A DNA stretch of 64,000 nt. Source: Macrocystis pyrifera (lineage: Eukaryota; Sar; Phaeophyceae; Laminariales; Laminariaceae). The translations under genes were made by a program, and so were the position numbers. The DNA lies in contig JASSKH010000021.1 of assembly GCA_031763025.1 (NCBI GenBank), forward strand, positions 8,613,358 to 8,677,357, written 5' to 3'. The notes under the pieces are model-generated. The model saw nothing but the letters and a program-made list of their open reading frames with translations, was not told the DNA's origin and did no database searches. Position 1 is the stretch's first letter. Every line of letters starts with the position of its first letter. Positions 4,050 to 62,095 of this stretch are shown piece by piece.

Positions 4050-7000
4050 ACTGGTCGGTGAAAACCCGACGTGCTCCGTCCCGGCATTGTAGGGATGCGA
4101 GGGTATATGACCATACGACTACGGCCACGCATGACCCCCCCCCCCCCCCCCCCCCCCTGTGGTAAGATACCCGTAAAACTATACCGATTTCCATTGGGCG
4201 GTGGAAATCTGGTCTGATATTATTCCTAAAATCCCCGACGTTTGGTGCACATACCAAGCGCTAAATGAAGGGGAGGGGTGGATGATGCATGACATTAAGT
4301 CAAGACCTACTATACTCATGAAACAAACACCTTGCATTTGATCGACCACATGACCTAAGAGAAGGAGCACCAAGCGGTACGTAGATATCTTGATATCTTG
4401 AAGGATAGAAGCCGGTACAAAATGTGGGGGGATTGTTGGCCAAGCTTTCGGCAGTGAAGGTCTACTCGGGAGCATTAGTGGGGTAGTTACCCATGGTGAA
4501 ACGTACATATGACGGAGAAAGCGACGTACGGGGCATCCCGATGTGTGAGTAAGACTTTGTGTTATGCAAGCCGTCCTTGAACCTTGCACGGTGAAAATGA
4601 CCTCCCTGGAGAAAAGTAACCAGTACAGCAGCGGGGCAAGAAGATAGAAGATACGATCGTGGGACGCCAGGATGGTTACCATGCAGATCGCCTGACACAA
4701 ACGTGGGGTACTTGTGTTAAGGGTGTTGAACTTGGCTCCAGGCTACGAGTCCGTGTTGGAGACACTATTTAGTGTGGTGCACCGGCAAAAGAACTGAAAG
4801 ACACCAGACCCTCAACGAGTACTAGGATTGGGAAGTCCCAGTAACTTGAACACTTCCCACTACCACTACGAACACAAACAAGCTGGAGATATTCTCGGAA
4901 GAGATTAGGAGACAGACGGTGAGGAAGGGTGGGTGGAGAAAGAAAGATTGGCAGGGTAAAGGACTAGTAGTGCTGATATTTGGAGTTCCTAGCGACATGA
5001 CAAAGATTGAGTTCAAGAGGAAGTGCGACGAAGTAGGACTGTATTGCTTTGCAATAGGAAACGTAGAACGAGAGGGAGAACACTTTCGAATCACTCTGAA
5101 GCTGAAAGCGAGCATGGAGTGGCAGAGGATAGAGACAGAAAAAGTGTCGGCATGAGTTAGAAGACTAGGATGGAGAGTATGTATAGCTAATGGAATAACG
5201 AAACTAAGACGTAGCCCTAGGGTGAACGAAGGTAGGGGGGGAGGCAGGAAACAGCAAGTGGCTCAAAGGGAATGGGGGGAAAACATAGGGGCGCAGAACA
5301 AGCAGACAAGAACAGGAACGGAAACGAAAATAATGCTCAAAGAAGGGATAACAGAAATACTCGTGGCGACAACGGAGAAAGAACAGGTAAGACTAGAGCG
5401 GATAGTGAAACGAAAAGGAGGCTGAGAATACGATCATGGAACGTATGTGGCTTCGCCACGGAAGAGCGCAAAAGAATCGAAATTGCCGAAGAAGTAAGTA
5501 AGCGCGACCTAGACATAGTGGGAATTCAAGAGTCGTGGGAGCGAGAAAGAAGGAGGAGAGATAGGATCCAAAGTTGGAGAGTACGCATGGATAGGGAAAA
5601 AGAGGAAGGGACAGAATAGCAAGAATAGGGGGGGGGGGGGGGTGTGGGGTTCCTAGTCAACGAGTACCTGTGTGACATAATAGAGGTGATCAAAGACACT
5701 AAATTCGACGAAAGTATATGGATTCAGATTCCGGGGGAGCGGGGAGCGAAATATTACTCCTTAGGAAACATATATATGCCCCCAGAGTCGAAGAATACGA
5801 TAAAAGATATACAGAGGAAGTTCGGAGAAGTAGCAGTAGATGTACAGAAGTATAAGAGGCAAGGAGAAGTAGTACTAGTGGGAGATTTTAACTCAAGAAT
5901 TGGGAGGGCAAGCAAACTGAATGAGAACATTGGACAATATGGGGAAGTAACAAAGAATAAGAATGGGGAAGAGATGCTGAAGTTCCTCAAGCACAACGAG
6001 ATGAAAACGTTGAACGACAGAGTAAAAAAGGCAGAACCGGAATGGACTAGACAATGCATACAAAAGGGAGAAAGCTCTATCCTTGACTTCATGGTAGTAG
6101 AAAATGGAAGTGGTAAGGAAACGGAACTACATGTATGCGCGGCGGACATAGGAACTACGGATCACTGTCTAATATGGACAGTCAACAGACGAGAGTTATC
6201 AAAGATAGAAGAGGTAGGAAATTGTGTCGATGGAGAATAGATAAACTAGAAGTAAAAGAGAAACGGGAAGAGTTCCAAGAAGAGATGGCCAAAAATGCAG
6301 AGAAATTTTCCGAGCTGTTGGAAAGAATAGATACAACAAGGAACGATATAGAAAGGGATGACGCAGGAGCTAGGATAATAGAAGGATGGGAGCAGTTGGT
6401 CAAGACCACAGCAAGTAAAGTAATAGGGAAGAAGTTGATAGTATGCAACAGAGCGGTAAAATGGTGGGATGAAGAAGTGAAAGAGGCTATGAGAGCAAGG
6501 AGAAAGGCACACGCAAGGTATACATCGAGTAAAACTCCGATAGGGTGGGAGGAGTATGCTATATATAGAAAGAAAGTAAAAGAGATGGTAGAGAAGAAGA
6601 AGAAAGGGATATGGAAAGACGTAGTAAATAAAACAAATGAAGACTTTGAGGGCGGGATGAAGCAGATGTGGGTAGGGATAAAAGGGATACTTGGCAGACA
6701 AGCAGGAGAGGCAGACACGGGAATAGCTACTCTAAGAGCACAGAACGGTAATCTGGTTAGTAGTTCGAAGGGGAAAAGGGAGGTACTAGTAGAGCATTAC
6801 CGAAAGCTAGGAACACCCACAGCCAACGAAACGTTCGATGCAGAATTCGAGAAGGAAATCAACGCGTGGGCAGAGGCGAACGTAGATACATCAGAAAGGG
6901 AAGACAGTGGTTCGGGAGGGTTACAGAGAGAGTTCACAGGGGAAGAAGTAAAGAAGTGTGTAGCCAAACTTAAGAATAGAAAGGCAGCAGGGGCAGACCA

Positions 7001-10320: not shown

Positions 10321-10437
10321 ACTACGGGGGTCCATAGTTAATACCAGGTAGGACCTATCGTATACATAAAAACCTATATATTTACCTATTTTTACTGACA
10401 ATATTTGATCCTATTTACTATGGTCCCCCGTAATAGT
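10321..10437. mobile_element. palindromic MITE (PalM) with CCAGG scar
   Basis: Ends 'tacgggggtccatagtta' and 'tactatggtcccccgtaata'. Inside the left arm, 10342-10350 reads TACCAGGTA where sister copies have TA (ccatagttaaTAggacc), a 7-bp gain. Confidence 0.85.
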
Positions 10438-15330: not shown

Positions 15331-15791
15331 AACTTGTCTCACCGAGGGAGCCCCTCTTTCGACTATCAGAGGTTTCCCAATACCCGTTTTTTTTTTTTTT
15401 TCGCCACTAAAATCAACAGGTACTAAACCTCTGGGGATATGCATCAATCAGCCTTGTCACAGCTTTACATTTTTTCCTGAATAAAGTCGATAGCTGGGTG
15501 AGAGTTTTTCAAAGGAGGAGCCTCAGATAATGTAGGCGCTATATTTCCCCAACCGTAGCACGGACTATACTAAAACTAGTATAATAAGCCCAAAAGAGGC
15601 CTCGGCGCGACCCCCAAAAAGGCCGGTCTCGTATTATACCTGGTATGAATTACTAGAGCCTCTTTTTTTTTGTCCTGATGTGATGTGATACATATATATT
15701 TGTGGCGGCGGCTTTTCGGGTTCGGGGTTCCGCGATCGATCAGATCGCTTTTGGTGGCACGCGGTGTGTGTCCGCGCAAACTCGGGCGGGG

Positions 15792-15900
15792 CGGGGGTCC
15801 ATAGTTAATAGGACCTATGGTATACATAAAAACCTATAAATTAGCCAATTTTTACTAACAATATTTGGTCCTACCAGGTATTTACTATGGCCCCCCGTAA
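15792..15900. mobile_element. palindromic MITE (PalM) with CCAGG scar
   Basis: Arms 'gggggtccatagttaatagg' and 'tttactatggccccccgtaa'. At 15872-15880 the right arm reads ggtccTACCAGGTAtttac where sister copies read ggtccTAtttac. Confidence 0.85.
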
Positions 15901-16560: not shown

Positions 16561-17018
16561 AACAGCCCTGCAGTGTTGTAAGAGGAAGTTCTGCAGCGCG
16601 TAGGTCTAGGCCGGGAGATGGTGCTGAGCCAGGGCCAGGCACCGCCTTTTTTTTTCGGTGTTGGTGTTAACGACACGAGAGTGCACGGAATTTATGCTTG
16701 CGTCCCGCAAAGCTTCCACACCTCGGACAGCTAGATCACGATCTACGTAGATCATGTAGATTATGCACCAGATACCGTAGATCCTAAGCCGCCGTTATGA
16801 TATTTTGTGCGAGATCTAAATCATGTGGATCCTAACGTGCTGGCATGATTCGGTAAGTTGTGCGGGATACGTAACAGTACATATCCAACCCGGCAACATG
16901 GTGGCTAGATAGATCATACCTGGTACAGATCAAGAATATTCCCGGAAATATCTGGATCATGAAGTGGGAATTTTCTATCTGCTTTTGTCTGAGGCATGGG
17001 TAAGACTTTCCACGAGTT

Positions 17019-19205
17019 TTTTTACTCTGTCGTTCGACATCTTCCATGTATTATTTCTCTTGGAACGTCACCATCTCTGCCCCATATTATTGTTTGTTAC
17101 TTCCCCGTGCTGTCCACTGCTCTTGTTCGGGTTGCTTGCCTTCCTGGTTCTTGAACTAAAGTCTCCCACTAGTGGACCAACGCCCCAACGGGTAGGGTGG
17201 ACCGTAACTGGACCAAGTCCGGCGGGAAGGCATCATAGCCTCGGTTTTTGTTTGTGGGTAAGCTTGCGCAAGTCCCACACTACCCGGAAGAAGAGATGAC
17301 TCTCCCGGGTGTCTATCTCCACCGCACCTGCTCCTCTCGGGGGTCAGGTCGGGTCAACGGGCCCGAACTCCAGGGGTAACAGCAGCCTGTTCTGATGTTG
17401 CAACGGGAGCTATGGGCTAAATTGACACACAACGCGTTGGAACGTGGAAGTGTGGTGAGCTTAAGCTTTATTTTTACCAATCCGCCAGAGGATCCAAAAA
17501 AAATGTACTACTTCTCCCTAGTTTTTTTACTTCTGTACATCTACTGCTACTTTCTCCGAAGTTCCTCTGTATATATCCTTTTTACCGTCTCTTCGACTCT
17601 GGGGGCATAGAGATGTTTGCCTAGTATCTAGTATTTTGCTCCCGATTCCCCTAATATCTTTATCCGCGAGCTTTCGTCGAATTTGGTGTCTTTGATCACC
17701 TCTATGATGTCACACAGATTTTCTTTGACTAGGAGCCCTACCCCCCCCCCCCCCCCTGTTCTTGCTGTTCTGTCCCTTGCTTGTTTTTTTTATCCATGCG
17801 TACTCTCTATTTGTGTATAACTGTTTCCTCCCTCTTTCTCCCACGACTCTTGAATGCCCACCATGTTTAGGTCGCGCTTACTTGTCCGGCTGTTCATATC
17901 CCCACGCGGTCTTCCGTGGCGAATCCACATAAAAACGTCCCATGATCCTATTCTCAGCTTCTATCCTATCCGCTCTATTATGTGGTTCCTTGTCCATCGT
18001 TGCTACCTCTGTTCTCTCTTGTTTGAGCTTTCTTTTCGTTTCCGTTTCCGTTTCCAGTTTTGCCTGCTTGTTCTACGCTATTATGTTTCCCCCCCGCCAA
18101 CTGCTTCCTGCAGCCTCTTGCCTTCCTTCACCCCAGCTAGGACTACGTCTAAGCTTCGCTATTCCATTAACTGTACATACCCTCCATCCTAGTATTCTAA
18201 ACCCATGCCAACACTTTTCTGTTTACATCCTCTGCCACTCCATGCTTGCTTTCGGTTTTAGCGATATAATCGAAATCGTCTCCGCTCCCTTTATGCTTGT
18301 CCTAACGCGAAGCAGCACGGTACTACTTCGTAACACTATTCCTATTGAACTCTATTCTCGTCATATCGCTAGGAATTCCAAATGTCAGCACTACTCAATA
18401 GCACTTTACTCTTCCAATGTTTTCTTTCTTCTCCCACCCTGCCTCACTGTCTCTCTCCTAATCTCTTTCGAGAATATCCCCAGCTTGTTTGTGTGCCATA
18501 TTTGTAGTGATAAAAATTAAAGTTACTGGGACTTCCCAATCCTATTTATTGTGCTCGTCGAGGGTCTGGTGTCTTTCTGTCTACAAGTTTTGCCGGCGCA
18601 CCACACCAAATATTGTCTGCAGCACGGGCGTAACCTGGAGCCAAGTCCACAACCCTTCTCATAAGTACCCCACGTTTGTGTCAGGCGATCTGCGTGGTAA
18701 CCATCCTGGCGTCCCACGATTATATCTTCTATCTTCTTGCCCCGCTGCTGTACTGGTTACTTTCCTCCAGAGGTCATTTTTACCGTGCAAGGTTCAAGGG
18801 CGGCTTGAATAACCGAACTCTTGTTACTCACACATCGGGATATTCCCCGTACGTTGCTTTCTCCATCATTTTTACGTTTCACCATGAGTAGCTACCCCAC
18901 TCGTGCTTCCGAGTAGACCTTCGCTGTCGAGAGCTTGGCCGACAGCCTCCCACGCATTGTGTACCCGCTTCTATCCATCAAGATATTAAGATACCAGGTA
19001 TCTGCGTATCGTTTGGTGCTCCTTCTCTTCGGTGGTATGTGGTTGGTCATTGGTACGAAAGCTGTTTATTTCATGAGTTCAAAGGGTCCTGACTTAGTGT
19101 CATGCATCACCCCCCCTCCTCTTCGCTTGGCGCATGGTATGTGCACCTAGTGTCGGGGATTTTAGGAGAATGTCAGGCTAGATTTTCAACCGCCCAATGG
19201 AAATC
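17019..19205 (-). mobile_element. LINE copy 2: 5' half only, reverse strand
   Basis: Corresponds to copy 1 from its 5' end through the endonuclease region (copy 1 about 4160-6030). The 3' end is missing, which is unusual because LINEs normally lose the 5' end. A deletion or rearrangement after insertion is likely. It holds a 333-bp insert (17174-17506), and TACCAGGTA at 18992-19000 stands where copy 1 has TA. Frames are broken in many places. Confidence 0.85.
17174..17506. mobile_element. 333-bp insert in LINE copy 2
   Basis: The LINE sequence is cleanly interrupted: left flank '...ctcccactagt', right flank 'actacttct...', contiguous in copy 1. The insert ends in A8 (in ccaaaaaaaatgt). At most 2 bp (GT) are duplicated. 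Part of the insert (about 17460-17500) resembles 9728-9775 in inverted orientation, so it belongs to a dispersed family. No coding content is recognised. Confidence 0.6.
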
Positions 19206-19954: not shown

Positions 19955-20300
19955 AACCTGTCCATGATAAAAGTGTCCCGACCTTAATAAAACATATAGC
20001 GTCGTCGGCAGGACGAACCTGCTGCGCGTGAAATCACAATGGGTTTCGAATCTGGTCGTAGAGTACACGTAAAGTCTAAATCCCTTCTGTATTTATATAC
20101 TGTCTGTACTAACCTACCAGGTAGTAGTATACTTCCTTCTGTCCATGATAAAAAGTGTCCCGATCTTAATATAACAAATGGCGTCGTCGGCAGGACCAAC
20201 CTGCGCGTGAAATCACGATGGGTTTCGATTCTGATCGTAGAGTACACGTAAAGTCTAAATCCCTTCTGTATATATATATATATCTATACTGTCTGTACCT
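19955..20300 (+). repeat. ~185-bp tandem duplication
   Basis: Two units share 'gtccatgataaaagtgtccc', 'gcgtcgtcggcagga' and 'gtagagtacacgtaaagtct'. The first carries TACCAGGTA at 20115-20123 near its end. The corresponding part of the second is 'cctaccgaatag', so the comparison is suggestive but not exact. Confidence 0.8.
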
Positions 20301-21152
20301 ACCGAATAGTATATAGTAGATGTTCTGTGTGCTATGTCAGGCGTGAACAGCAGCACTGCGTGTGTGTTTTGTTTACAGCAGTATGGCACTACTTCTCGAA
20401 GACACCGCACCACCTTTTTCATCGCCGTTATGAGAAAGAACACGCTGTACCCACCCCAGACGATTTTCGGATCTGATTTCCTCCAAAAAAGTAAGGTGTC
20501 GTCGTTGGAAATATTCCGTCGCGAAAGATTCCGTCGCGAGATCTTTCCATATGGGCGCATCGCTCGGCGTTTGCGTTCTTCTTCCAGTTATCGAGTAAAC
20601 AAGCTCGGAAACTCGTCTGAGGGGTAGTGTTATCTTATCATACGTGTTGTTCAAGTTACCAACTCTCTGCCCGACTGCTGTACCTACCTGTGATTCTACG
20701 CTGTGCTCACAGTTCCCATGTGCGGCCAATCGGGAATCGGGAACAATCGTTTTGGGGAGCGCTGAGCGCTACATTATTACTGCCCCAAATCTCTACTCGT
20801 ACGTACACGAGTACTCAATCGAAACTGTTGCTATCATGCGTCATGTGTCAACGATGTGTGTGTGCTGCTGTGCTGCCAGGTAGATGGTGGGGTGAACGGT
20901 AGGGTGGCTCAGGCACAGGAGGCGGGGCGAGAGGTCCGACATACAACAACAATCAACCCGCGGATCAATGTGAAAAAAAAAATGACTTTTTACGGTTATT
21001 AAAACGCCTTAATATTTGGAAAACTGGGCGCGCAAAAAAAAATGTTACCAAACTACAACCTGCAACCGACCTAGTGTGCAACAGCCCGGACATCGTCCAT
21101 CTTTCCCGAGGAAACACAACAACAAAATACTCTTGAAGTGATATCTCCACAG

Positions 21153-21424: not shown

Positions 21425-24400
21425 GTGAGTCGAGCCCACCGAAGCGCACCTCGGGTAGAAGCTGCGTCGAGTTTTATACCAAAGAAAGAAAGTCGCTGCT
21501 TCCGATGGAGCCTCTCTCTCTGTTTCTCATCTTCTTGTTGCCGCGTTCGTTGCTTCTTCAATGATAAAAAGGTTGGTGGCATTTTTTGCCATATACTACG
21601 CCTGTGTGTCTGTAATTATAAGTACCATTTTAATTGTTTTTGAAAATCAAAATGTTTCTTATTTTTACGAACATTTTTAGTAGGAAAACTCGCGCAATAT
21701 TTTTTGTTACGCAGGAGGTACGATTATCTTGTCTGGTCATGTCTTGACCAATATTTTTCTGGAAAAATTGCTGAGACAGACAATAATAATATACCCTCGG
21801 TCCTCTCTTGAAGGAGCTTCAGCGTCGATGGCGCCCGAAGACTTGACCTGCCCGCCTCGTCAGATAAAGTAGCGAGCTCTCCCTGCGCTTCGTCTGCTCC
21901 CTGCGTGTGTCCCGTCTGTTTGGCTCTGTCTGTGTCGGTTGCCGCCGCTCTGCTCTGGTCGAGAGCAGTCGGGGGAGTATTTCGTCAACAAGCGAGGAAA
22001 TTGCATCCATGTGCGGTCCTACCTGCCTCCCACTGCTGACGTACACGACATCAAGGCAGTGGTGCTCTTCTCCCACGGGTGAGCTTGTCCTGCTATTTTA
22101 GATGGGCCGGGCGGTAGGGTTGCAATTTTGGAGGGAAGGCAACGACGGCGACTCGTGGCTGAAGCTTTTGTTGGTTTGGCTTATTTTTGGCTTGTGGTGG
22201 TGTTGGCGGCGGCTACTGCATGGGCTTGGTCGGTCGAGTCACGAAAATGGCGGTCACATGCATGTACAGCAGTATGACGGCTCGTGTTTTTTTTTTCCCC
22301 GCGTACCTGGTACATGTATGTTTTTTTACTTGTGCGTACTATTGTAATATTAAATAATAGACAAAATTTAGTGAACACTTGTCATGTAGTATTAAATAGA
22401 AAAAAGCACAGCAGTACTTGTTGTACATCCACGTGTTATCCGTACGTACGTATGTACTCACGTGTATTCCTGGCACCAAGTTGTCCCGCAATATAAGTAA
22501 CATTTAATCATAATATTGATATTGTAACGATTCTTATATATGGGGATATGTCATACTATTAATAGTATGTACATACCGAGTAACAAGTGCCATTGTTGTG
22601 GTACGTACGCACACGCAAGAATTTGTTGACCAAGAAAAAGTGTCGAAAATAGGCGACGATTTTGTCATACGGTTTTATCGAACACACTCGATCAGGAAGC
22701 CCGGGCTGCTTGGGTGTATCACATCGTCGTCCCCGGTGGCTTGGCAGGTGGTCCGCGAGCCTGTCAAGATCAATTTCGTGAGTTCGAGTCTCACCGAGTG
22801 CATGCTCATAGGGATTTTTTCTTGCACTAAAAATTGATAAGCGGAAAGCGCGAAAGCGTGAGTTGGCTACATTCGATGAAAATCGACGAGCAGTGGGAAT
22901 GCTGAACCCTATGCGCGATAAAAACTAAAGGCACGTACCGGGGGGGAGAAGGGACGACACCTGTGACCACGGCTTGTCCAGAAGATCGTCGAGGGTAAAA
23001 CCTCCTACGAGTAGCCTGGAAAGTAAAAGTGATGATTAAACAAAAAAAAAAAAAATCACATCGTAAGGCACGCGTTGGGAACTGCAATGTGAAGGACTGC
23101 TGCTCCTGCTCCTGCTGCTGCTCCTGCTGCTGCTCCTGCTGCTGCTCCTGCTGCTGCTCCTGCTGCTGCTCCTGCTAATGCTCCTGCTAATGCTCCTGCT
23201 GCACGATCTTCCTACGTACAAGCTCAACACACAACAAGCTTTTGAGAGATTATTGGCAAAGCTTGAGAGATTGTGAACTCGACTCGTCGGTTTTCGAAAA
23301 ACCATATCTTTACTTGGAATTAGTGTGGTAACTTCCTTTTGTAAAGTATTTTGCACGCGCTGTGTTCATACACTCCTGTCTGCGTACGAACGCACATGAT
23401 GCAAAAATAATTTCGATAATGAAAGATGAAGATGTCTATTATCTGATTATACAGCAGCAGTACTGAGCAGGGATATCGATATAATTTGCTGTTGCGCTTT
23501 TGCGCTGGCACAAAACAGCAGTTTGATCAAAAGCAGTAGTAATGGACCAACCTTGATAGTAGATCTTCCTGGGGTAGCTAACTAGGCACTCTGATTGGCT
23601 AGGGGTATGTTTTACGCGGCTCAATCAACTTTCGCGTCTTTCCCAGCCACAGCATCCCGAGCCATCCCGAGTCAACCTATATTAGAGTCTTCCCAAGCTC
23701 AGCATCCACGCCGGGCGAGCCAACCTAGAGTCTAAACAAGCACAGCATCCCAGCACTGACCACTGGCATAGGGTTCGGGTTCGGGTTCGGGTTCGGGTTC
23801 GGGTTCGGGTCGGAGGGTCGGCTTAAGGCGTCCAACACAAAACCCCCATAAAGATCTACTATCAAGGTCTGTCCACCCCTCATCAAAAGTCAAAATAGCC
23901 GTTTTCCGCAAACAGCCGCGGAGGGCACTAGTTGCGCGCAGGGCAACACGCGATTTTCGGCGCGCAACTTTTTTGGTCCCAGGCCCTACAAATTGTTGCG
24001 GCCTTTTTTGTTCGCCGTCCAGCTACGTACAAGTAGGCGTTTTTTTTTTGGCAACACTCACTGTACTGTTTTTCTAATTCGCCTTTTTAGCGATTTTTTT
24101 TTTCGAGCCCCCCTTTTTGGATTCGGCGGAGGCGATTTAAAAAATAATCATACTGGTAGGGGCCCTTTTTCTATTCGCCTGTAGTATGCAGAGCAAAAGA
24201 AAATCGGGTGCTAATCCCGATACACGCCTTTTCGAGGTTCGGCAGGCGTTTAAACGCACTTTGTTGCATGGTTTTCGGGCATAGGTTCGCGCTTATATCG
24301 CAATTTTTTGGCGTCCGGCGGCCCTTGCGTCGCTCGCAACAGCCACCGGACCACTGATCATACCCCTGGTACTTGCTTACTGTAGTGCTGGCAGGTAGTG

Positions 24401-27400
24401 CTTCTTGCTGCCTGTCTTATCTGGCTGATCTCGTGGTTGGGTCCCTGCTCTTGCCTATTGTGTGTCTGTCGATGTCAATGTATTTTCATGGTTGAAGCGG
24501 CTAGCGGCAAGTATTGAGGTCGACCGACCAACCAACAAGCACTCTCCATGCTCTACATGCATATCGATTTTATGGCTGTGGGTTCGTGTCCTCATGTGCT
24601 GCATGTCTCGTATCTCGTAACATATCGATATGACAAACAAGGAGGTGTTGGGTCGAGCACCCGAGGGAGAGCCTGACTTCATCAATAAATTTTCGGCAGC
24701 AGATGCAAGCTTCAAAAGCAGATGCAATCGTAATTCGTAACAGCAGTTAAACTGCTGTTGCCGTACGTAGCGCACTATTGATACGATCTGCGGTACATAA
24801 GTAAAAAAAGCTGTAACCCTGTAATTTCATGATTTCTTCTGTAATAAAAACCTAAAAAAAGACCACGACCCACGACAGCACACAGCAATAAGATGGACCT
24901 GCATGGCGATGCATGTTGATACGCTATAAAGAGCCAAGAGCATAGCTGTGTAGCATGTGTTGTACCTGGTAGCAAATATGTTGTACCCGAGGATACGTTT
25001 TTTTACGTCTGATTGATACGCGTGTGCATATCTATTATAATACCAGGGACTAGGTACGTGTTGCAGCGTTGCAGCCGTTCGAGTAGGTAGCCCCTAAGCT
25101 TTAATCTTTAATCGTATCTGGAGGCTCATTGTTTCTTACCAGGTATTTTCTTATTTGGGTCAGTAGTGGGCAAAAATGTTGGGCCGAAATTTGACTTGTT
25201 GCTTAAGCGTTTTCGCCTTTGCTGAGAGGTCCCACTTTTATTGAATAATACCTACCCAGGTACTAATAATACTGCAGCTACCATCGTAGTAAATACGTAG
25301 TAAATAGTTGTATACTGGTGTACCACTAACAAGTACTGGCATATATTAATAGTAGTAGTATTGCCCTGTGATAATGCTGTGTAAATCGTAAAACACATGA
25401 TACATGATACACACTCTGTACCTGGTTTACCAGTGCAGGTACCAGGCATCATACATTGTACCACCAGTACGAGCTTGTTCGTACACTCCGTATATTGACT
25501 CCATAGCTTTGCTTTGCTTTGTAGATGGATATTGCTGAAGTCTCATTGCATTGGTGGGTAGATCTATGCTACAGCAGTACGGCAGTAGAACTACTATTAA
25601 TAGTAGTATAGGTATCTACGAGGTAGAGCTGCAAGTTCAACAACAACTTCATACATACGACCCGGTATTTCAGTTCAGTATTATTATTAATAATAGTAGT
25701 AACAATAGTTTCACAGCTCACAGCCGTATCGATTTATTTCATACGAGTATGATGTGCGAGTATGCGAGTACTTAGACCAGGCACGTACTATTCTGCCGTA
25801 CGATAATAAGTACCAGGTGCCAGGTATGGTATGCGTGTGTGTGTGTGTTCTTCACATTAAACCGTTCTTCTACTCGTCGACATCCAGCAAGCCGAGTGTC
25901 CGTGCTGATGCTTCACCCTAGAAAGATACGAGCTCTGTGGTCACAGACTACGACACAGAGATAACACACCGTAATGCATTAATAGCCTACGTAATACCAT
26001 GCCTTCGCACTAGGTGCGGCCGACACAACATACATACATACGCCAGCAACCAAAATACACCATAAAGAAAGAGAAGCAACGAAAAAACCAAACCGAAAAA
26101 GAACAAGAAAAAGAAAAAGAAAAGGAGAAGAATCCCAAGTATGGTATGGTATAATCTTCAGATAAGTTGAGTATCAACTATTTAATCAGTCGGACTCTGA
26201 CGTATTTCATAAATTTATAAAATCTTGAGATACAATTACATAAGAATTACATAATTACATAATTGCATAGAAGCAAGTATTTTGATCTATTATTGTCAAT
26301 AATAGTGCGTGGTACGAGTAGCCGTGACTCGCCAGGCTTGTTTGCTGCGGGGTGCGCATTTCCCCATGATATGATGCATGATATCACTCCTCCAGAGAGG
26401 GAGCGCAGAGAGCTGAGCGCCGAGTAAGGGAGGGGTTTAATACATACCAGGTACCTGGTACCTGGTACTGATGCAAGATGCAGTACAACTCGTGGCTCGT
26501 GTGGCATATCCCAAACCATCCATGCATTGCCATGGCCATCGCCATCGACTGCTGTGCCAGTACGCCAATACCACTGACGAGTTTTTTTTTCATCGTAGAA
26601 ATAAATACCTGGTAGTGCACTCGTAGTAGATTTGCTTTTTGTAAAATGAGGCCAAATGGCGCCAGTGGACTATGGAGAGTGAACTACTATTAATAGTGGA
26701 AGTCGGTTAGTTGGCCAGCCAACTGTCGATAATTACTGCCCGGTAAGTCCAGCCAGCTCACCGCCCTGCCTTTTGATGATCTGAAATATACACCTCCTGT
26801 ACCAGGCAGATATTTTGAAGATCGAGATCTTTCAGGGAGATAGATATAGTCGTCATCTATACCAGGTATCTGGTACGATCTTTCAGGCAGATATGTCCGT
26901 TATTGTTATATTAATATTTGCTGAGTGGGGGTCTCTATTTAATTATTTATAGAATAAAATAACAGATGATTACTTTTAGGAGAAAGAGAAATAAATAACA
27001 TGTTGTAGTGGTAATAAAATGGCCCACATAGCAAGAAAACAGTAAAATAAATCGGCCCCTAGGACCAAGAAGAAAAACAATTAGATGTAAGACCTGTGCC
27101 AATGGAAACGCGAAGTCCAAAAGTTTCTTTCAAAAATGTTGCTTTAAAAAATCAGCCGAAAACATCCTCGTACCGCCGCTGTGGGAAAAAACTGAAAAAA
27201 GTTTGATTTCTTTTTCTAACGGCTGCAGGCGGCGCAATTTGTTTTTCTCGTTGCAAATTGTCAACACGCTGATAAAAATCAGCTCGTGCGACGATAGCCG
27301 CTCGATCTCGATATAGACTCAACCCACGACCAACCCGCTTGGTGTCGGGCAAGGCCAACTATATATGACGGCCTCCAAGATATCAGGTGGATCCATGCTC

Positions 27401-30400
27401 TAGGGGGCGAGAGCTTGCCGGCGGCGTCCTACGGTATCCTCCCAAATCTGACAAAACGAAAAAAGCCTGCTTTTTGTCATTCGAGACGAATCGAGAAATT
27501 TCGTCTTCTGTTTTGTGCACACGAGCGGCTTCTTTTTTTTTTATCGTACGCCTGGCCAGCGCCCGCCACCCTTCACTGGCCATTGTGTGAACACGGTGAC
27601 CTTACAGTAGGGTGGGTCGGAGCCCCTAACGAGCGCACCCCGTTCAAAATTCATGACGCAGTCGTTGGTTTTGTCGATCGATGTCTGTCGAGGACTCGGA
27701 ATCTCGCCGCTTCGAACCGAACATCCGCCTGAGTTTTTCTGAAGTCGATCTTGGCCCAAAATCGACCCCTGAATTGTTTTTTTCGGGCTTTTCCAAAAAT
27801 TTGGAACTTTCCGTGTGAAGAAACATGCCCATAGCAAGCTGTACCTGGATTTTTCTGACGGGTGTCCGTGGGATTCAAACTGTTTATGGGAAGTTTGCGT
27901 TTCCATTGGCATAGCTCTTTTTAACTGTTAATACCCAGAATGCTGAGATTTCTGGACGAAAGTAAAAAATGCCTTTTTTTGTTCAAATTTATGTATACTT
28001 GGTTAGTATTCATGTGCAGGAAAGTACGCTTCACAAGCGGTTCTTAGGATGCAGCCCACCCTTCATGCAACTCGCCGAATACCTCACGGCGCTTCGCGCT
28101 TTTGGTGCTTGCAACATCTGCCTGGTCGGTGAAAATCCGACGCGCTCCGTCCCGGCATTATAGATATGCGAGGGTCTATGGTCATACGACTTCGGCCATA
28201 TGCCACAATATTGAGTACCCCCCTCCCTCCTTTATCTGGCACTATAACAAAAAAAGCACGAAGAATAAGATTCGTAGTCGATACCGCCGGTGGGTCGTGA
28301 TCCCACGTCTCTCTGCGTTAGCAGAGTGTTCCTAGTGTTGAACTACGACGGCTAGAGTGTAGGACAGCTCGGGCTGAGACAGCAGCCCGATGACAAGATG
28401 AGACAGGGAGATATGATGAGTGAGAGCCGAGGGGCGAGCAATCATCGTTGCTCCCGCGGCGCTCGGGTCAAAGGACAGTTCAGCGGGGTCTTGCTATGTC
28501 CCGCTGCGGAGAATCCGCTAGGCAGAATAGCCGCCGCTGAGGCTGCGTCACCGGAAGGTGAAGGAGAAGGCTCCGTGGCGAGATCCTGACATGACAAGCT
28601 CCCGAGTTCCCGAGCAAAGTTTCTGGAATAGCTTTCTCGAAGGATGCGGGGGTTTCGACTATATTGGTAGGCGTGTTGGTTCCAGGGACATGGTATCCAC
28701 AAGAACAACTTCTTTTTTTTTTCAAATATTTCTGTATTTTATTTGGTATTAGTATAGTCTACCCCCCCTGTCTGGGTCTAGGGAGTGGGAGCAGGGGGGA
28801 TGTCGGGATTTTTTTTTTTTGTCTGTTACTCTGTATGTACCTCTGCTGGGTTGTGTCGTTCTTTTGTAAAGTACCTGGTACGTATATACCGTAACCCTGG
28901 ACGATTCGAAGCTACCGCTGTAGGTTCGGGCTCTATCACGGAAGACCATAGTTAATAGGACCTATGGTATACACAAAAAGCTATATATTTACCTATTTTT
29001 ACTAGTAATATCCTATTTACTATGGTCCCCCGTGATAGCTTCTGCTGTACGTAGGAACTGCCCCTGTTAATAGACGATTCCAAGATACTGCTGTACGAGC
29101 TCTCGCTAGGGACTTGACTCGCGCTGGTGGATATAGGATGTTTGTACACCTCGCACAGATCATCTACAGATGATTCCCACAGTTCATGATCTAGATTTTT
29201 CAAGGCAGATATATGATCTGTATGATCTAGCTCATGTTGCCGGGTGGGACCCGTATATTCTGCATCATCTACGGTAGCCAAGCACATGTTTTTTTCGTGG
29301 GCTGGAGCTGTACTATGCAGATCCCACACGACGCCTCGCAACGGCAGGCGAGGAACTAGATCATTTTTTCTGTAGATGGTCTACAGATCATGACCTGTGT
29401 GCTTTTTCGGAGGTGTGGATAGTTGTAACTGCTGTGTGCGTTAGCAAAAAAAAAAAAAGTCCAACACGACCAAAGCAGCAGTTGCACATGTCTTAACAGC
29501 AGTAGTTTTTTGTTTTTTTTTTTTTTGTAGAGGGGCGTAGACGGAGATTCGGGCACGCTATACTTTACTGGTAGGCTGGAAAGGAACCCCTAACCTTTTT
29601 CGCCGTCGTAAAATTAGAAGCTCGCTTACGGTGAGCGAGTAGTGATAGTATGCATACTCGTATAATACTCCTCGTACCTCCGCGGCTGCTTGGAATGTGA
29701 CGCTGTTGTGTTCTACTAATATTACGGGGCCCCATAGTAAATCGGACCTACGGTACATATAATACTACACACAAAACCTATATATTTACCTGTTTTTACT
29801 ATTACGGGGGTCCATAGTTAACGGGATCAAATTTTGTTAGTAAAAATAGGCAAATATATAGGTTTTTCTGTACACCATAGGTCCTGTTAACTATGGACCC
29901 CCGTAATAACAACATTTGGTCCTATTTACTATTACTATGGTCCCCCGTAATAGTAGTTTCGTTTTCGTTTTTTCTTTTTTTTTCCCCCCTTTCGTTATTA
30001 TTTTCTTGCCTGCGTCGGTGGGTGGCGAGCCTGTTTTACGGCTGTTTTTCTTGGTGTGCTTTTATTTTCCTTCTGTTTTTTACTTTTTGCTGCAGTTCCC
30101 TTTGCTGCATTTTCCGTCGCAGCCCCTTCCCACGAGAGAGCACCGCTGCGGTGTTTTTTTTTTCGTCGCTTTGGTCGGTCCTTGCCTTTGCTTTCTGTCT
30201 TGCCGCATCAGGTATTTTGTTCCATGTCTTTGGAATTTTCTTCAATGTGTTCTGGCTACGTTTTTAGTTTTTGGTTTGTTTTTTTGCCCTTGGGTTCTTT
30301 CCTTTCGTTCTGTGACGTTAGGGGTTGGTACGAAAATGCCGCGAAATTGAGTAGGCAGCGCCACACACCCGTTACATGATTGGCGTTCGCGTTCGAGGGG

Positions 30401-35431: not shown

Positions 35432-38400
35432 GTACTCGATAGGAGAGATGTATGTACTCGATCTCATGAATGGCAGTAGTCCTATGACCATAGACCCTCG
35501 CATCCCTGCAATGCTGGGACGGAGCATGTAGGGGGGTTTGCTTAACGGTACTGCTGTCGCGGCTGCTAGAGCTACTGCTAGCGCGGCTGTTAATGCTACT
35601 GCTAGCGCGTGCCGTACTGCTAGCGCTTCTGTTGACGCCACTGCTAGCGCTACTACTAGCGCTACTACTAGCGCTACTGCTAGCGCTACTGCTAGCGCTA
35701 CTGCTAGCGCTACTGCTATCGCTACTGCTAACCTTGCTAACCCGGACGGTATAACCCGAACGCTTTTTTGCCTGCGTGTGTGCCCTCGTCCAGTTAACCG
35801 ACCTGAGGTGTGCGTGCGGAACCCGGATGACCGGCGGGCCTCCAACCATGATGTTCTCGGATACCCAGGTAGGTAACCCCGCCCCCCCCCCCCCCCCCCC
35901 ACCCACCCTTCCCACCCTTCGTGCAACTCGCTCAACACCTCACGGCGCTTCGCGCTTGGTGCAAGCAATATCTGTCTGGTCGGTGAAAACCCGATATGCT
36001 TCGTCTCGGCAGTGTAGGGATGCGAGGGTGCGGGGGGGTCCATCGATGAGCACGAGGGCCCCGTGTAATCTGCATCATGTCGGACATGTTTTCTGGGTTG
36101 GATATGTACTACTGTACTAGATACATACATATCCTGCACTACATCTCATAACGGCAGCTCGGGATCTATCTGTATATGATCTATCTGTAGATGATTTATA
36201 TGTGGATGATCTATCTGTAGATGATCTATCTGTAGATGATCTATCCGTAGATGATCTATCCGTAGATGAGCTATCTGTAGATGATCTATATGTAGATGAT
36301 GTATCTGTAGATGATGTATCTGTAGATGATGTATCTGTAGATGATGTATCTGTAGATGATGTATCTGTAGATGATCTATCTGTAGATCTATCTGTAGATC
36401 TGTCTGTAGATGGTCTATCTGTAGATGATATATCTGATGATTTCACTTTTTAACCCCTCTCCAACCGCATCACCTTTTTTTTTTGTTTACAAACGACAAG
36501 GTAATAGTGTACGATATATATATATGTATGTACATTGGCAGACAAAATTGGGAGTACTCTCGTGCATGCATGCACACACATCGTCAGAGTTTTTTTTTTT
36601 TTTTTTTGACGATTCACAGCGACGGCGATACAGTGGTTGGTGTCCTAGTCACATTGGTTGAAACAAGGAGTCGTAGGGCACTGGCACAGCGTGATTCTAC
36701 CCGTACTTGTTGGCCCGCACGCTTCCCGTACACGGTCCAATGGTTGACAACACCAGAATATATCAACCATTGTTTTGGTCGTTATCTACGCCAATGGGGT
36801 GGTCATGGTTTAGTTGACTTCCCTCGGGTTTTGTGTTTTTTTTTTCCTTGTGATGACAACATCATGGGGTATTTTTGGCGATGCGGTGATGCGAGGATAA
36901 GAACAGGAGCAAGTTTAAACCGCGACAGTAACAAACGGCAAATGCAACAAGCGCTGAGCAGAACAACAACAGCAGCAGCAGCAGCCGCAGCGGCAGCAGC
37001 AGCAGCAGCAGCAGCAGCAACATACCAGGTAAACTCTACAACACGATCATCAACAAACAACAACTTAGCTCAACTATAGCTCGACACAGCTCAACCACAC
37101 ATGCTCCGCTGTTGCTTGCAGGAGGGCTGGGCTATGGGGGCAACATGAGGTTCCGCACCGGCCTTAACCTTATCGACCTAACAGCAGAAGTATCGCGGAG
37201 GATGAAGCACGTCAAGTTTCCCTTTCTCATCATGCACGACCCGGGAGACAGTGAGTTTTGCACTTTGGCATGGCGGGAAGGGGGCAGGGGGTTGGGGGAG
37301 GGTGGTGGGGGGTAGGATGGGAGCGGGGATATAGGATAGGATGGGGGAGGGGGGGGGGGGGGAGGGGTGGGTGGGTAGGTAGAGGGGGCGTCCTCATTTT
37401 TTTTGCTTGCCTTAGTCATTTGACCATTGACCACGCATCCCTTTCGAGACGGAGGGGGCGGGTTGGGGGGGGGGGGGGGGGGGGTGGGATGGCCTGTCTG
37501 CTCACGAGGTCTAATGCTCCGTGTTAGGTCGTCCCGAGCACACGGTCTGTGTGGTCATGAGATCTATGATGTGTTCTTCGCAAGGTCTGCATTCGTTTAA
37601 CGTGCGGTTTAAATACGGGGTTAACAACTCAGATCGAAACTCGCAAATTTGAGCGAGGACATGGCAGATATATCGTTTTTCTCGTAATTACTTGGATTTA
37701 TGTACGTATGGAACCGTGTTTTGGTAATACCTTTTGACGGATGTCGAATAGGGCAATGAAACTTCTATAGATCTGTGTCTTCGGCGCTGCCTCCAGGAAG
37801 TTCCTCCCCGATCAGGAACGACGATTTTTAAGCGAATTTCGTGTTCTTAAAGTTGATGCTTTTAAAAGCTTTCGCGGACATCTCGGCGAGAGACTTGAGT
37901 CGGGTTTCGCTTTATTTTCATCATTTTTCATCTTTTTTTTTTTTTTTTTTTTTTCCCCCTTGCGTATGCAACGTTATGTCAAGGCCAGTGCTCCAATTTT
38001 TTGTCTTAATTCTGATTGGTTCACGAGATACGACTTAACGGGGCTGTGTATCCGTTTTTCGGCTGGGCTAGCTCGCATGTGTACCGATGAAATTTCGATG
38101 GTTGTTAGGTCACGCCTTTCGTTTTTAGGGCTTGTATTGACCAAAAAAAAATTCAGCGGGTGGTAAGCCTTCCGTTCTTCTTCGGCCGTAAAAAAACGTC
38201 GCCGGATTTTACCTTGCGTCGTTCGCCCACGTCCGAATGCCTCCGACGGGAAAACCTTCCGCGTGTTCTATATTTGCGCCCGAATGCCCCCAGCCCTCCT
38301 CAACATCTGATGGAAGCGGTGTGCTCCCTTTTGCTTCCGTGTTTCGCGCCGCCCATCGCTGTCCACGCAGGTATTGTGCAATTTGAATCGTCGAAAGAAT

Positions 38401-40865: not shown

Positions 40866-41864
40866 TTCGATTGGGTGTGTCGCCCGCCCCCCCCCCCCCC
40901 GCCTCCTTGTTCGTGTTCTGGTTAGCTTGGTTCGTTACGCCATCTTCCAGACGGATCGGTTATTCTTCTGGCAATGGCCAAAACTAGCATAAGCAAATGG
41001 TTGGTTGATCTGCTTTTGACTTTTGATAGACCTTTGCGGTGGCGTTCTTTGGAGCCCCCCTTTCCCCAGCGGCAAGAGCCTTATAGAAAATAAACAGGCG
41101 TGTTTTTTTGGCGGGGGCGGGGCGGGGGGCGGGGCGGGATCGGGTTGAGCTTCAGTAATTATGTTCTCATTACTGTATTGCCAGCGTTCGCTTTCTGGAT
41201 GCCGAGTTGACGCGCTGAAGAAAGTAAAAGCCATGAGGCTCAACTAGCCTGATTGACTCGTGGATGAAGACGCTCGTCGTAGGATAGGTGGTTGCAGCAG
41301 CAGTAGTTGCAGCAGCAGCGGCAGCGGCAGCAGCGGCGGCGGCAAACAAGGTATACATAATTACATATATATATACCTGGTACACTGTTTTCGTTTCTCA
41401 AGGAGGAAACAGTTCATTCTGCGGGTTGAAAAGCTTGAAGCAGTTAGTTGCTATGATTGAGATTTTTGATGTAATTGTGCTAGAGGGGAAAACGTTTGGT
41501 TGTTGTTGTTGTTGTTGGTGTTGGGATGAGTCGACGTGGCAGCAGCAGCAGCAGCAGGAACAGGAACAGGAGCGGCGGTGGCGATACCGGCGGTGACGGC
41601 GGTGACGACTGCACCGCAACTGCCGCGAGCTGTCCGGTTTGTTTGCTCCCCGATGGAGTGGCACAGCTAACTGCAACTTGGTGGGCGTGGGTGGGACTGA
41701 TTACGACTGCCTGCCCGCTCTCCGCGCGTGACGCATGAGATTACTATTACTATTAATTGATGATCATGGGACAGGAACTAATAATATTATTAGCGTACTT
41801 GGGAATGGGCCGAGCCGTGCCACGCGCAGGGGTGTGTGCCCATTTAGCGCCAAACATACGCCTC

Positions 41865-43765: not shown

Positions 43766-44174
43766 TAACAAGTGCTCTAAACGAACAAAGTTGCTTCTAT
43801 TGTAGTGATGAACGTACGTGGTATACCGGCAAAGTCATACGCCGATTTTTAGTCGATCTTAAGCCTCGATTTTTTTTTTCTACGCTCTACAGGACGAGAA
43901 GTGCCTCTCTTAAGACCGGTGCGTACCCAATACCAGGTATATACTGTCAATCTCCGGCCTAGATTTTTCCCGTGAACCCTCTTGTATACCTGGCCGGACT
44001 CTCGGAGAGCAAAAAAAGTTGACGATTGCGGCAACGCCAGAGGCGGCTGCGTGATCGGGGGATGGCCCAATTTTTTGTGTGTCAGAGTATACTACTATTA
44101 ATAGGTACTGGTACAGCGCAAGAAGCCATACGGCGCGGGTACGACATGATCCTCGCACAGTACAGTACCCGCAC

Positions 44175-44620: not shown

Positions 44621-44924
44621 TGGAAAGACCCCCCCCATGGTACCCACTTTTAGACCTCCATCCGTTTCAAGACTTTTCGGGAGACTGGGGAGACCAGGTA
44701 AATCGGCTTTTGTTGTCACGATTAAAAAAAAATACCGGGGAACCGGGGAACTAGTACGCTCAACAGTAAAAAATACCTGGTAACCAGGTGCCCGGTAATA
44801 CCATACCTGGCATCAGAGATAAGACTTACCTTTCTAGGCCTTGTCACGGGGTGCTCTTAAAGTGGGTACTCCACTACTCAGTAGCAATTTTTGGGCTAAA
44901 ATATTTCCGACTTGAGGGGGCTTT

Positions 44925-45194: not shown

Positions 45195-45450
45195 AGCTGT
45201 TCATAGCTCGAACAAATCATGATCTATCTATCTCTCTATCTATCTATCTATCTATCTACTGTAGATGATCTAGTTCTTCACTTACCATTGTGAGAGGTTG
45301 TGCAGGATCTGCGTTACAGGGCAGATCCAACTCAGGAAACATGCGCTGTATCTGGTACCTGGTATAGCTTACAGCTTACGCTGATTGCATGGGTCCGGCA
45401 ACATGAGCTAAAATATGCAACATCGGGATTGGATATATCTGCCTTGAAAG
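45195..45450 (-). repeat. GATCTATC-family dispersed repeat, reverse
   Basis: A ctatctatctatc run, 'gtgagaggttgtgcaggatc', 'ggaaacatgcgctgta' and 'gtccggcaacatgagcta'. TACCTGGTA lies inside it at 45356-45364. Confidence 0.6.
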
Positions 45451-46779: not shown

Positions 46780-48987
46780 CTGGCCGAGGGAGGGAGAAAG
46801 GAAGAAGTCAGCAAGGAAAGACGATTGGGCGGTAGTACACGGAGTCAAGAAACCCAATCCATCAAGCCTTCAGTAGAGACGGCCCGTGCGATTAAATAGT
46901 AGCACTTTTTGCCTTGCAAGGGAAATATTTTATGAGTATATGACAGGGCTTCTCTCGACTGAGCAGCTACCCAATGTCACTGGGCATATCGTTTAGTTCT
47001 TGAAAAAAAAAATAACGATACAGACCTCATGTCATGGGATTGATCGCTCATCAGATTGAGGGTACGTTCTTGAATCCTTTTTTTTGTTTGGGTGGTATTC
47101 CCAGAGACACAAAATACTGCCTGCGTTTCGCACGCAAACCCCTCTACCGTGTGTCTGAGACGCAAACAATTCACCCTTCGGACAATCCTTGATTCCTACG
47201 TTCAATGATCTAGACTTCTCAGGGTAGATAGATCTATTCCTAATCTGTATGGTCTGTATGGGTTAGCTCATGTGGCCGGGTGGAACTCGTATAATCTGCG
47301 TGATGTACTATAGGTCATATTTCCCGTGCATACGATCCTGCACAACATCGCACAGCGGCAGGTTAGGAGCTATTATAGATGAGCTATCTGTAGATGATCT
47401 ATCTGTAGATGATCTATCTGTAGATGATCTATCTGTAGATGATCTACCTGAAGATGATCTATCTGTAGATGATCTACCTGTAGATGATCTACCTGTAGAG
47501 AGAACAACAACAACAACAAAAACAACAACCAACCATTGAATGAAACTCTGGTATGATCGGAAATATAAGAACCGTTTAGACATTAGTATGAATACGAAGC
47601 GTTCCTTGTAATTCCGACCGTTGGGGCAAGCAATTTGGTTGGGCGGCCACTCAATCAATCAACCATCCAATCAATTGTTCAATCACTCACTCAATCAACC
47701 ACCCAATCAATCCATCGTTCAATTCCACCAATCAACCATTCAACTCCGTCTTGAACCCATGCAAACGATTGACGCAATGGTAGCACAATGGTTGATACGT
47801 GCCGGCAAGAAAGGGGTCAGCAGTTTTTCGGCCGGATAAAAAAAAATCTGGCAGACCGGGCTTGCTTCTTGACCCAATATCGTTGGGATGTCATGATTCA
47901 CAGACTGATAGTGTATTTCAAGTACTATTCGTGATGTAGGCTTTACCGGCCGTTGTCATCGGGTTTTGCACTTCTAGCTCAATTCTCAAAACTAGTTTTC
48001 GAGCGACGCCTACAATGACGTACTCGTCGGAGCGTACGGTAGACGAAACCGTCTGTATGTGTACTATTCGGATCTCAACAGATCTGCCGCACGATGATAT
48101 GTGGAGAGTGAGCTGGCGCGGCTCACATCTCTGTGATCACCCGCTTCATCATCACCACCAGCCACATTCTCACATTTACTGCTATTAAATAGTAATAGTA
48201 CGTATACTACAAATAATACCAGGTAGATGCTATCATGCCCCTGCCGCAGTTTAATTTCCACGCTGGCCGAAAATTAAGTACCGGTTGGTATTGATATTAA
48301 TGTACAAACGCTTCTTATATTTCCGCCCATGGTGTTGTGTGCAGATATATTCATTTGTTTTGTGGCACAGATCTTCCGGGGCAGATAGATGCCTGATTTG
48401 ATGCACGTGATGTTATCGCAGTATCTGATGGTGTTTGCTAGGTGGGATCTGTACGATCTATATGTGCACGAGTTTGAAGGGTGGGATCTGTGTGACATAG
48501 CTCTTGCGCAACATATCACAACGAAAAATAAAGGATCCGTATGATCTAAATGATCTAAAAGATGTGCGTGATTTGTATGAGCTACAAGATATATTCGAAC
48601 TATATCAACTATAATATATCTATGATCTATATGATCTATTAGATATCTATGACCTATATGATCTATGTGATCTATATTATATGCGTATAGACTATATATT
48701 GCCATCTATCCGACGTGTGAAATGTTTGATTTGGCGGACCAACCCGTGAAAGTCACGAAGACCAACAGACAGACAAACAGACAGGCACACAGACAGCAAC
48801 ACAAACACACAGACAGACAGACAGACAGACAGACGGCAACACAGACACACAGACAGATAGACAGACAGACAGACAGAAACACAGACACACACAGACAGAC
48901 AGACAGACAGACATGCATAAAGACGGACAGACAGACAGACAGACAAAACACAGACTGACAAGACAGACAGACAGACCTACCTACATA

Positions 48988-60478: not shown

Positions 60479-61629
60479 GTGTACCAGATGCCCCTACGTA
60501 CACCTGGGATATACCCTGTGGGACGCTACTTGGTATATACCAGGTACTCGAGCAAGCATCAAGCGTACGTGTGTACGGATTGAGCAGGAGCTAGCTGTGT
60601 TCGAATTGGGAAAAGAAACACGAGTGATTACGACTGCTGTGAGCAGTGAGCACACGAAGATCTGCCACATGTCAAAGGTAGCAACACACACGCTCGTATC
60701 TGGTAAAGAGATACGAGTAGCATATGTAGGCATCTACCTGTCACCAAGCTGAACCGTTGCTACAATGCAACGCGCACAACCGGAGAAGACCATGCAATAG
60801 GCACACTCACAGGATTAGTTTTCAGGCACCACTCGATCCTTTCCAGATCGCGATGGGCTGTTTTCTGTGCATGCAGCTGTACTGTAGGTACTGCTGCTCC
60901 AGCTCGCGATGGGCTGCTTCCTGTACTACCGCGTATGTACAGCTGTACCGCATGCTATACGACGAGTACTCGTTTCGGGTACGTAGGTACGTAGCGTTTT
61001 GAATTTCGAATTCCCGCCATGAAATTGTACAAGGACACGATGGTCGGATGCAACTCTGCCGACCAAAGCATCGCCAGGGCAGCGAGACTGCTCTAGAGAC
61101 TATAACACCTACTTCATGATGGGATCTTCGCTTACCAGCAGAAGAGTGTCGTCGGCCCCTCAAGCGTGAAGAAACTGTGGTGGGCCGGACACGGTGGGTG
61201 CCGCACTTTCGAAGCTGTATCACGCCCTGGGTAAAAAGCCTCCATATCATATAGCAACACAATCTCCGATACCTTTGATACGTGCACCAGAGTGTGTATC
61301 TTCATGATGTCTTGATCTTGGTGTGCTAAACATGTATGATATCGCATGATGGTATAATAGTCCTGCTTGAAGCCATGGTACCTTACAAAGGTATATCCTG
61401 ATTATGATATCCTTGAGCACGACGGGCGAGACTCGAGACTCAAGACTCGAGTGTGCTAGCGCGTGTTTTCGTTGTCTCGTCGTACGTATCATACCATCAT
61501 ACATCGATGCTCGTGTCCCTGTTGCCTACTGCTCCCAGTGCTTGCTCCCTGCCTACACTGAGTACTGAGTCCTGGCTCTCTGCCTATTGCTGGCGGGTGC
61601 TGGCACCATGTACATACGATATGCGCGCC

Positions 61630-61794: not shown

Positions 61795-62095
61795 ATAGAC
61801 TGTGGGGAATGGTGAGCCCTCTGCGCGATAGAAGTGAAGGCCTTACACCCGTTATACCTACTTCTGCTGTAGCACGACACCTGTCTACCTACTACTGCAA
61901 CACGACACTACACCTGCCTACCTACTCTACTACAACACAGCAGTAAATACTACCTGGTACTGCAAAACTCAGCAGTAAACCTGTGACAACAGCTTATCCA
62001 GAAGGCCACTATTAATATTAGTAGCTGTTAGGGTGCAGAATCTCAAAAATGTGTACGCGAGTTTAGCTGGAAAGTAAAAATGAGGAAAAAAAAAG
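61795..62095 (+). mobile_element. second copy of the A-tailed SINE-like body
   Basis: Shares with 22890-23055 'cctatgcgcgataaaa/ccctctgcgcgatagaag', 'acgacacctgtgac', 'gcttatccagaagg' and 'ctggaaagtaaaaatga', and ends in an A-run. It is enlarged by a 'ctacctactact' short repeat with TACCTGGTA at 61951. Confidence 0.5.

Follow-up and report, generated by a model that had tools for sequence, protein, structure and literature searches.

The overhangs left by transposases of the Sleeping Beauty type are complementary to each other but for one A:A in the centre, and either A or T is found in the middle of the resulting scar. In Tc1/mariner elements the non-transferred strand is cleaved slightly inward of the element's ends, by a few bases, which leaves 3' overhangs, and end joining then produces a footprint, CAG in the case of Sleeping Beauty (PMC8151067; this and the other papers cited are represented here by portions of their text). 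Published footprints measure 2-4 bp for Tc1/mariner elements and 0-3 for ZB (PMC7913693), 0-4 for the pogo element Passer (PMC9976928) and 1-4 for Osmar5 and Ppmar2 (PMC1925063, PMC9632168). Footprints are also described for Stowaway MITEs and rice Osmar5, where repeated gain and loss at one TA was inferred from sister sequences, and repeated insertion and excision was inferred for Stowaway in a wheat-tribe intron (PMC1925063). The brown alga Ectocarpus, which belongs to the same algal class as kelp, holds 17 Mariner-Tc1 families, mostly as short non-autonomous copies, and the main text of that paper mentions neither footprint nor excision (PMC12477816). The word TACCWGGTA of the kelp Macrocystis pyrifera is a real and strong genome-wide scar. 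It resembles the TA-CAG-TA of Sleeping Beauty (PMC8151067) in that TA is doubled around a few terminal bases, and CCAGG follows the same logic as CAG with two more bases. In contrast to Tc1/mariner systems, the kelp scar has 5 nt, a further TA lies at 7 bp in the target, and neither element nor transposase was found in the searches run. Whereas Stowaway and Osmar5 leave varied 1-4 bp pieces of their terminal inverted repeats at single loci (PMC1925063, in part), one stereotyped 5-bp product is present at about 121,000 places in kelp. Among TA footprints the scar looks unusual for its five letters, and no surviving jumping gene was found in ~296 kb. No report of a TACCWGGTA scar was found in the portions of the literature on excision footprints, brown algal elements and kelp that were covered, and neither 9-mer appeared as a whole word in the papers searched.

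The stretch of DNA under study (the window) comprises 64 kb at positions 8613358-8677357 of its contig, in an assembly of 537,376,219 bases and 223 contigs. It holds 23 exact copies of the word, 11 TACCAGGTA and 12 TACCTGGTA, whereas the average over 100 dinucleotide shuffles was 0.37 and no shuffle exceeded 4. A sequence-only reading had reported more than 20 copies where less than one is expected by chance, and all 23 positions that it listed proved to be exact. The features of the window are as follows.

10342..10350, plus strand: scar TACCAGGTA in PalM MITE, site 1; exact match, empty TA in 16 sister alignments
15637..15645, minus strand: scar TACCTGGTA, with a TA 7 bp rightward; exact match
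15872..15880, plus strand: scar TACCAGGTA in PalM MITE, site 2; empty TA in 16 sister alignments
16917..16925, minus strand: scar TACCTGGTA, with a weak empty counterpart near 29249; exact match and alignment
18992..19000, plus strand: scar TACCAGGTA in LINE copy; sister segment 4244-4536 has the empty TA
20115..20123, plus strand: scar TACCAGGTA; exact match
22304..22312, minus strand: scar TACCTGGTA; exact match
24963..24971, minus strand: scar TACCTGGTA; exact match
25137..25145, plus strand: scar TACCAGGTA; exact match
26445..26467, no strand assigned: three stacked scars with common TA, TACCAGG-TACCTGG-TACCTGG-TA (26445, 26452, 26459); exact matches
26606..26614, minus strand: scar TACCTGGTA; exact match
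26860..26868, plus strand: scar TACCAGGTA, then variant unit TATCTGGTA, with the TA common to both; exact match
28872..28880, minus strand: scar TACCTGGTA; exact match
37023..37031, plus strand: scar TACCAGGTA downstream of a CAG/CAA run; exact match
41374..41382, minus strand: scar TACCTGGTA; exact match
43931..43939, plus strand: scar TACCAGGTA; exact match
44774..44782, minus strand: scar TACCTGGTA; exact match
45356..45364, minus strand: variant unit TATCTGGTA, then scar TACCTGGTA, with the TA common to both; exact match
48217..48225, plus strand: scar TACCAGGTA; exact match
60538..60546, plus strand: scar TACCAGGTA; exact match
61951..61959, minus strand: scar TACCTGGTA; exact match
10325..10433, plus strand: PalM MITE copy bearing scar 10342; aligned span
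15792..15900, plus strand: PalM MITE copy bearing scar 15872; aligned span
4244..4536, no strand assigned: LINE segment, empty-site counterpart of 18992; alignment
~2265, 13272, 20374, 22265, 25570, 31112 and 60068, among others: the word TACAGCAGTA/TACTGCTGTA

Ten of the 23 scars cluster in the 10-kb bin from 20000 to 30000, and scars are overdispersed over 10-kb bins (variance/mean 2.6). The window also holds a LINE reverse transcriptase ORF at 7212-8315 (RVT_1, E=2.5e-24). Genome-wide, 60,665 and 60,614 exact copies of TACCAGGTA and TACCTGGTA were counted (121,279 in all), compared with 1,239 and 1,182 (2,421) for the reversed word used as a control, so that the word is about 50-fold in excess. 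Such an excess had been set beforehand as a check of the initial claim. The possibility that the motif belongs to a longer repeat was likewise followed up, and no conserved longer repeat was found in the flanks of 70 sample sites. The main sample of 264 kb combined the window with twenty 10-kb stretches drawn from 14 contigs (L009-L028). Eight places around scars on contig 1 (L001-L008), scarred PalM places (L029-L036, eight of ~2-3 kb, and L037-L056, twenty of 184-272 bases) and nine places of 351-1,001 bases (L057-L065) were also read. The ~296-kb set (296,214 bases) contained the window and the loci up to L036, minus L002, L004-L006 and L030, which overlap others or are duplicates. On contig C1 (L003, L004, L008), a repeated unit with two fixed scars ~400 bp apart recurs every 12-24 kb, and one of its two scar sites is also present on C7 and C8.

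Comparison of sister copies verified that the word arises as a gain. The three gains proposed from the sequence, at PalM 10342, PalM 15872 and LINE 18992, were each borne out by sister alignments with strictly TA at the site (n=16, n=16 and n=1), while the remaining PalM copies read CA, TG or CG there or, in some cases, were too diverged for scoring. A possible fourth gain, 16917 against 29249, is weak. An informative sister copy was available at just 4 of the 71 sites of the 264-kb sample, three of them empty and one aligned ungapped. The single TA of the sisters as opposed to TA-CCWGG-TA in the scarred copies is what insertion at TA with TA duplication, a Tc1/mariner trait, would give. When indels between repeat copies were screened in the 264 kb without specifying a word, CCAGG was the commonest TA-X-TA gain at X of at least 3 nt, with 3 loci against 2 for CAG and 1 for every other; at shorter X, the most frequent gains were TA only and C, with 5 loci each, and CA, with 3 loci. 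The gain from TA to TA-CCWGG-TA also bears on a reading as a dispersed functional motif, a binding or recombination site made by point mutation and kept by selection. A sharp short word that has no longer conserved context would suit such a motif. However, sister copies differ by a 7-bp gain and not by substitutions, the word is found in MITEs and the LINE about as often as TA sites overall would lead one to expect, and variants with one mismatch are over-represented at most of its positions; this reading is largely contradicted already and is considered very improbable.

The gain recurs at one and the same TA. Pattern matching over the genome detected 102 copies of PalM that carry TA-CCWGG-TA at site 1 and 15,611 that are empty there (102/15,713, or 0.65% scarred), with 0 copies for the reversed-word control. 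The product is narrow, as CCWGG accounts for 102 of the 111 five-letter TA-bounded gains at this site. Among the first 100 five-letter gains listed, the others were CCAGC, CCAAG and CCTAG, each one change away from CCWGG, together with GTTAA (four) and TACTG (one). Both central letters occur at this single TA: in MITE orientation, 36 copies with CCAGG and 64 with CCTGG were counted by eye among 100 listed copies, one duplicate pair included, a split that departs from 1:1 (P=0.007). Outer left flanks were compared for the 29 of the 102 scarred copies that were read (L050, too short on that side, was left out) and match only for L029/L030, the next best identity being 55%. A scarred master copy of PalM was considered as the source of all 102 and is unlikely, because scarred and empty MITE bodies intermix: in an alignment of 13 empty bodies with 27 of the 29 scarred ones (L030, a duplicate, was dropped, as was a copy that was too short), the nearest neighbour was also scarred for 20 scarred bodies, compared with 18.2 in shuffles (P=0.42). 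The unlike flanks, with the exception of one pair, and the intermixed bodies indicate that the scar arose many times in independently placed copies. About 0.40% of all TA are scarred genome-wide (121,279 of ~30.2 million, the latter extrapolated from 16,621 TA in 296 kb), and PalM site 1 lies near this average. As site 1 has a TA 7 bp off on both sides, its rate should exceed the average more if the target bias described below acts alone.

These observations are probably explained by TACCWGGTA being the excision footprint of an unseen cut-and-paste transposon that duplicates TA, has CCAGG ends and leaves 5-nt overhangs able to anneal to each other. The course of events that we infer would begin with insertion of the element at TA, where it would sit as TA-[CCAGG ... 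CCTGG]-TA. Its transposase would then cut one strand at the TA and the other strand within the element, at a distance of 5 nt, so that each flank would end in a CCAGG 3' overhang. These overhangs would anneal save for a central A:A mismatch, and repair would resolve this mismatch as A or T to give TA-CCAGG-TA or TA-CCTGG-TA, with a net gain of 7 bp. Of the original proposal of recurrent 7-bp gains left by a transposon, the gains themselves hold firm through the counts, the sister copies and the independent PalM copies, and excision is the cheapest explanation for them. Its assignment to the Tc1/mariner class agrees with the doubled TA and with a word that self-pairs but for its central A:A and occurs with A or T there, but is not quite right, as the fixed 5-nt scar falls outside the 0-4 terminal nt of the published footprints compared here; the source is therefore described as working like Tc1/mariner and is not assigned to it. 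Two further points speak against the excision reading. The split between A and T at PalM site 1 is not 1:1, and trimmed products are uneven, with CCAG (27, expected ~8-11) and CCGG (30, expected ~6-8) above expectation and CAGG (11) not.

Many scars look old. In the 264-kb sample, one-mismatch neighbours of the word numbered 105 where 54 were expected, compared with 42 and 42 for the reversed control word, and exceeded expectation at most positions of the word. Set against ~69 excess exact words, this amounts to a decay of roughly 8% per position. The source apparently had a long period of activity and seems now to be rare or lost. The age of the scars bears on a variant of excision in which TA-bounded elements are cut out anew in every gametophyte or life cycle by a transposase that is either domesticated or resident, which would leave only scars in the sequenced haploid culture. 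The abundance of scars with elements not seen would agree with this, as would the origin of the assembly from a haploid female gametophyte (PMC10498591, in part). That the scars look old on average suggests instead that most were fixed in the germ line, and programmed excision is judged improbable. Ciliate internal eliminated sequences are TA-bounded and missing from somatic genomes, and their elimination is precise and leaves one TA, whereas kelp keeps a 5-nt scar; the likeness lies in the removal of sequences from the genome (PMC3464196, in part). The decay of copies by point mutation likewise speaks against an assembly or library artefact, in favour of which nothing was found. Both central letters occur, the target bias is strong and the scar is common to a duplicated contig pair (L029/L030), so that an artefact can hardly be credited.

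The sites at which the scars lie carry a signature of their own. A is avoided (T at the opposite end) in the base beside the word: it is the first base outside on 6% of sides at 89 sites, compared with 19% around TA overall. At a distance of exactly 7 bp, a TA was found on 62,384 of 242,558 sides across the genome, or 25.7% with stacked scars and PalM sites counted in, compared with a sample background of 7.7%. At 8 bp it was found on 33,878 sides (14.0%, sample background 7.5%), which indicates a general richness of scar flanks in TA on which a peak at 7 bp is superimposed; in the sample, TA is also raised at 2 and 4 bp. After 10 of 80 sample sites were dropped as PalM sites or stacked units, the peak persisted in the remaining 70 (27 against 10.8 expected, P=8e-6, uncorrected for 20 distances), and TA lay at 7 bp on both sides in only 1 of them. 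In the sample the peak is absent at CWG, CWGCWG and TTAA words, and CWG and TTAA flanks have signatures of their own. The 7-bp register, TA plus five bases, is that of the scar itself, and the bias may reflect one machine with that spacing. To our knowledge, the 7-bp peak is not a trait of the Tc1/mariner family, which prefers AT-rich palindromic targets around TA. This preference and the other TA-bounded words described below were absent from the sequence-only reading.

Some scars are stacked with a common TA, as repeated insertion and excision at one spot would produce. In one array compared by eye, L057/L058 read TACCAGG-TACCAGG-TACAGCAG-TA and the homologous L059 reads TATCAGG-TACCAGG-TACAGCAG-TA; no triple stacked scars were found in viral contigs. 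The stacking is also compatible with direct insertion of 7 bp and no larger element involved, where a fixed TA-CCWGG unit would be captured or copied into TA sites either by a TA-specific enzyme or in the course of break repair. The head-to-tail arrangement of units, a very uniform product, a parent element not found in ~296 kb and targets that often read TA-N5-TA already, without such a peak at the other words, all fit this alternative. Yet a near self-pairing CCWGG with either central letter is explained by staggered excision without further assumptions, and we know of no enzyme that inserts a fixed TA-CCWGG unit at TA. Direct insertion appears unlikely, and the excision footprint is retained as the preferred reading.

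The parent element was searched for in several ways. Pairs of TACCWGG...CCWGGTA with matching inner ends reached at best a terminal match of 12/20 in the sample, and a half-site search gave nothing convincing. When the flanks of 480 end pairs in the ~296 kb were joined, 13 alignments crossed the junction, none of them a convincing empty site; on inspection each proved to be a match of the sequence to itself or a PalM end that continues past the junction. The ~296 kb hold 86 TA-bounded inverted repeats, and the only one that starts with CCAGG (25137/26614) is formed by two scars. Positions 749-1528 of L028 were considered as an element starting TA-CAG and rejected, as the pairing continues outside them as in a long fold-back. 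Long near-perfect inverted repeats of fold-back type were observed at L028 701-1576 and L026 5979-8087. A profile search of the genome with DDE_3 (PF13358) returned 0 matches, with only 3 candidates scored. The predicted element with CCAGG...CCTGG ends thus has no copy in the ~296 kb, which represent ~0.05% of the genome, and its existence as the source is deduced from the scars; such a search would miss a family of fewer than ~1 copy per 300 kb (~1,800 copies) and also any element that exceeds the stretches read in length.

CCAGG leads the dispersed TA-X-TA words of the sample, with 46 distinct contexts against 2.0 expected. Several other words self-pair apart from A:A or T:T, namely CAGCAG (21 against 1.5), TTAA (39 against 5.4), CCGG (12 against 3.0) and CAG (67 against 42), a property that annealing of overhangs predicts; they were picked post hoc from a list of 45. 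This list also contains non-self-pairing words (ATAG, 32 against 11; CGAG, 28 against 10; CTACAG, 11 against 1.1; and CATATA) as well as TA-repeat words, CAG ranks low in it (1.6-fold), and for TTAA the site preferred by PalM is a confounder. A strictly empty sister was found at none of the informative sites (CAG 0/7, CCGG 0/1, TTAA 0/2; CAGCAG had no informative site), and the indel screen of the 264 kb gave direct gains of CAG at 2 loci and of CCGG at 1 locus. As direct gains are few and the words were chosen post hoc, a guild of staggers is put forward only tentatively. Its members would be TA transposons of a hit-and-run kind, hardly ever visible as elements: possibly, one undescribed lineage with a 5-nt stagger and a second TA favoured at 7 bp marked about 1 TA in 150-250 with CCWGG, while its relatives produced CWG by a 3-nt stagger, CCGG or TTAA by a 4-nt stagger and CWGCWG by a 6-nt stagger, and every one of these scars would have a distinct flank signature. 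TACAGTA, which is the classic footprint word of 3 nt, occurs 106 times in the 264-kb sample, compared with ~39-46 expected, with G favoured beside TA. The word TACAGCAGTA/TACTGCTGTA is dispersed 24 times in the 264 kb (0.7-1.5 expected) and is sometimes stacked on CCWGG scars. A further palindrome, CTATTAATAG, is also dispersed, for example at ~22557 and ~50661 of the window, with 58 TATTAATA places in 264 kb. It equals the two outer ends common in PalM copies joined at TA and is either a preferred target of PalM or PalM's own excision product.

If the excision footprint is the correct reading, the responsible transposase would have a stagger longer than those behind the published footprints compared here, as far as the portions of those papers show. 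Ordinary repeat annotation does not pick up words as short as 9 bp, and similar scars may therefore be overlooked in other genomes. The scars would add a stereotyped, frame-shifting 7-bp class of mutation and would permit the counting of past transpositions even where no element survives, with 121,279 exact scars in addition to decayed ones in one genome and 102 of them at one position of a MITE. In an organism with few genetic tools, it would thereby become possible to measure how cut-and-paste activity, the choice of targets and the repair of breaks have run over time.
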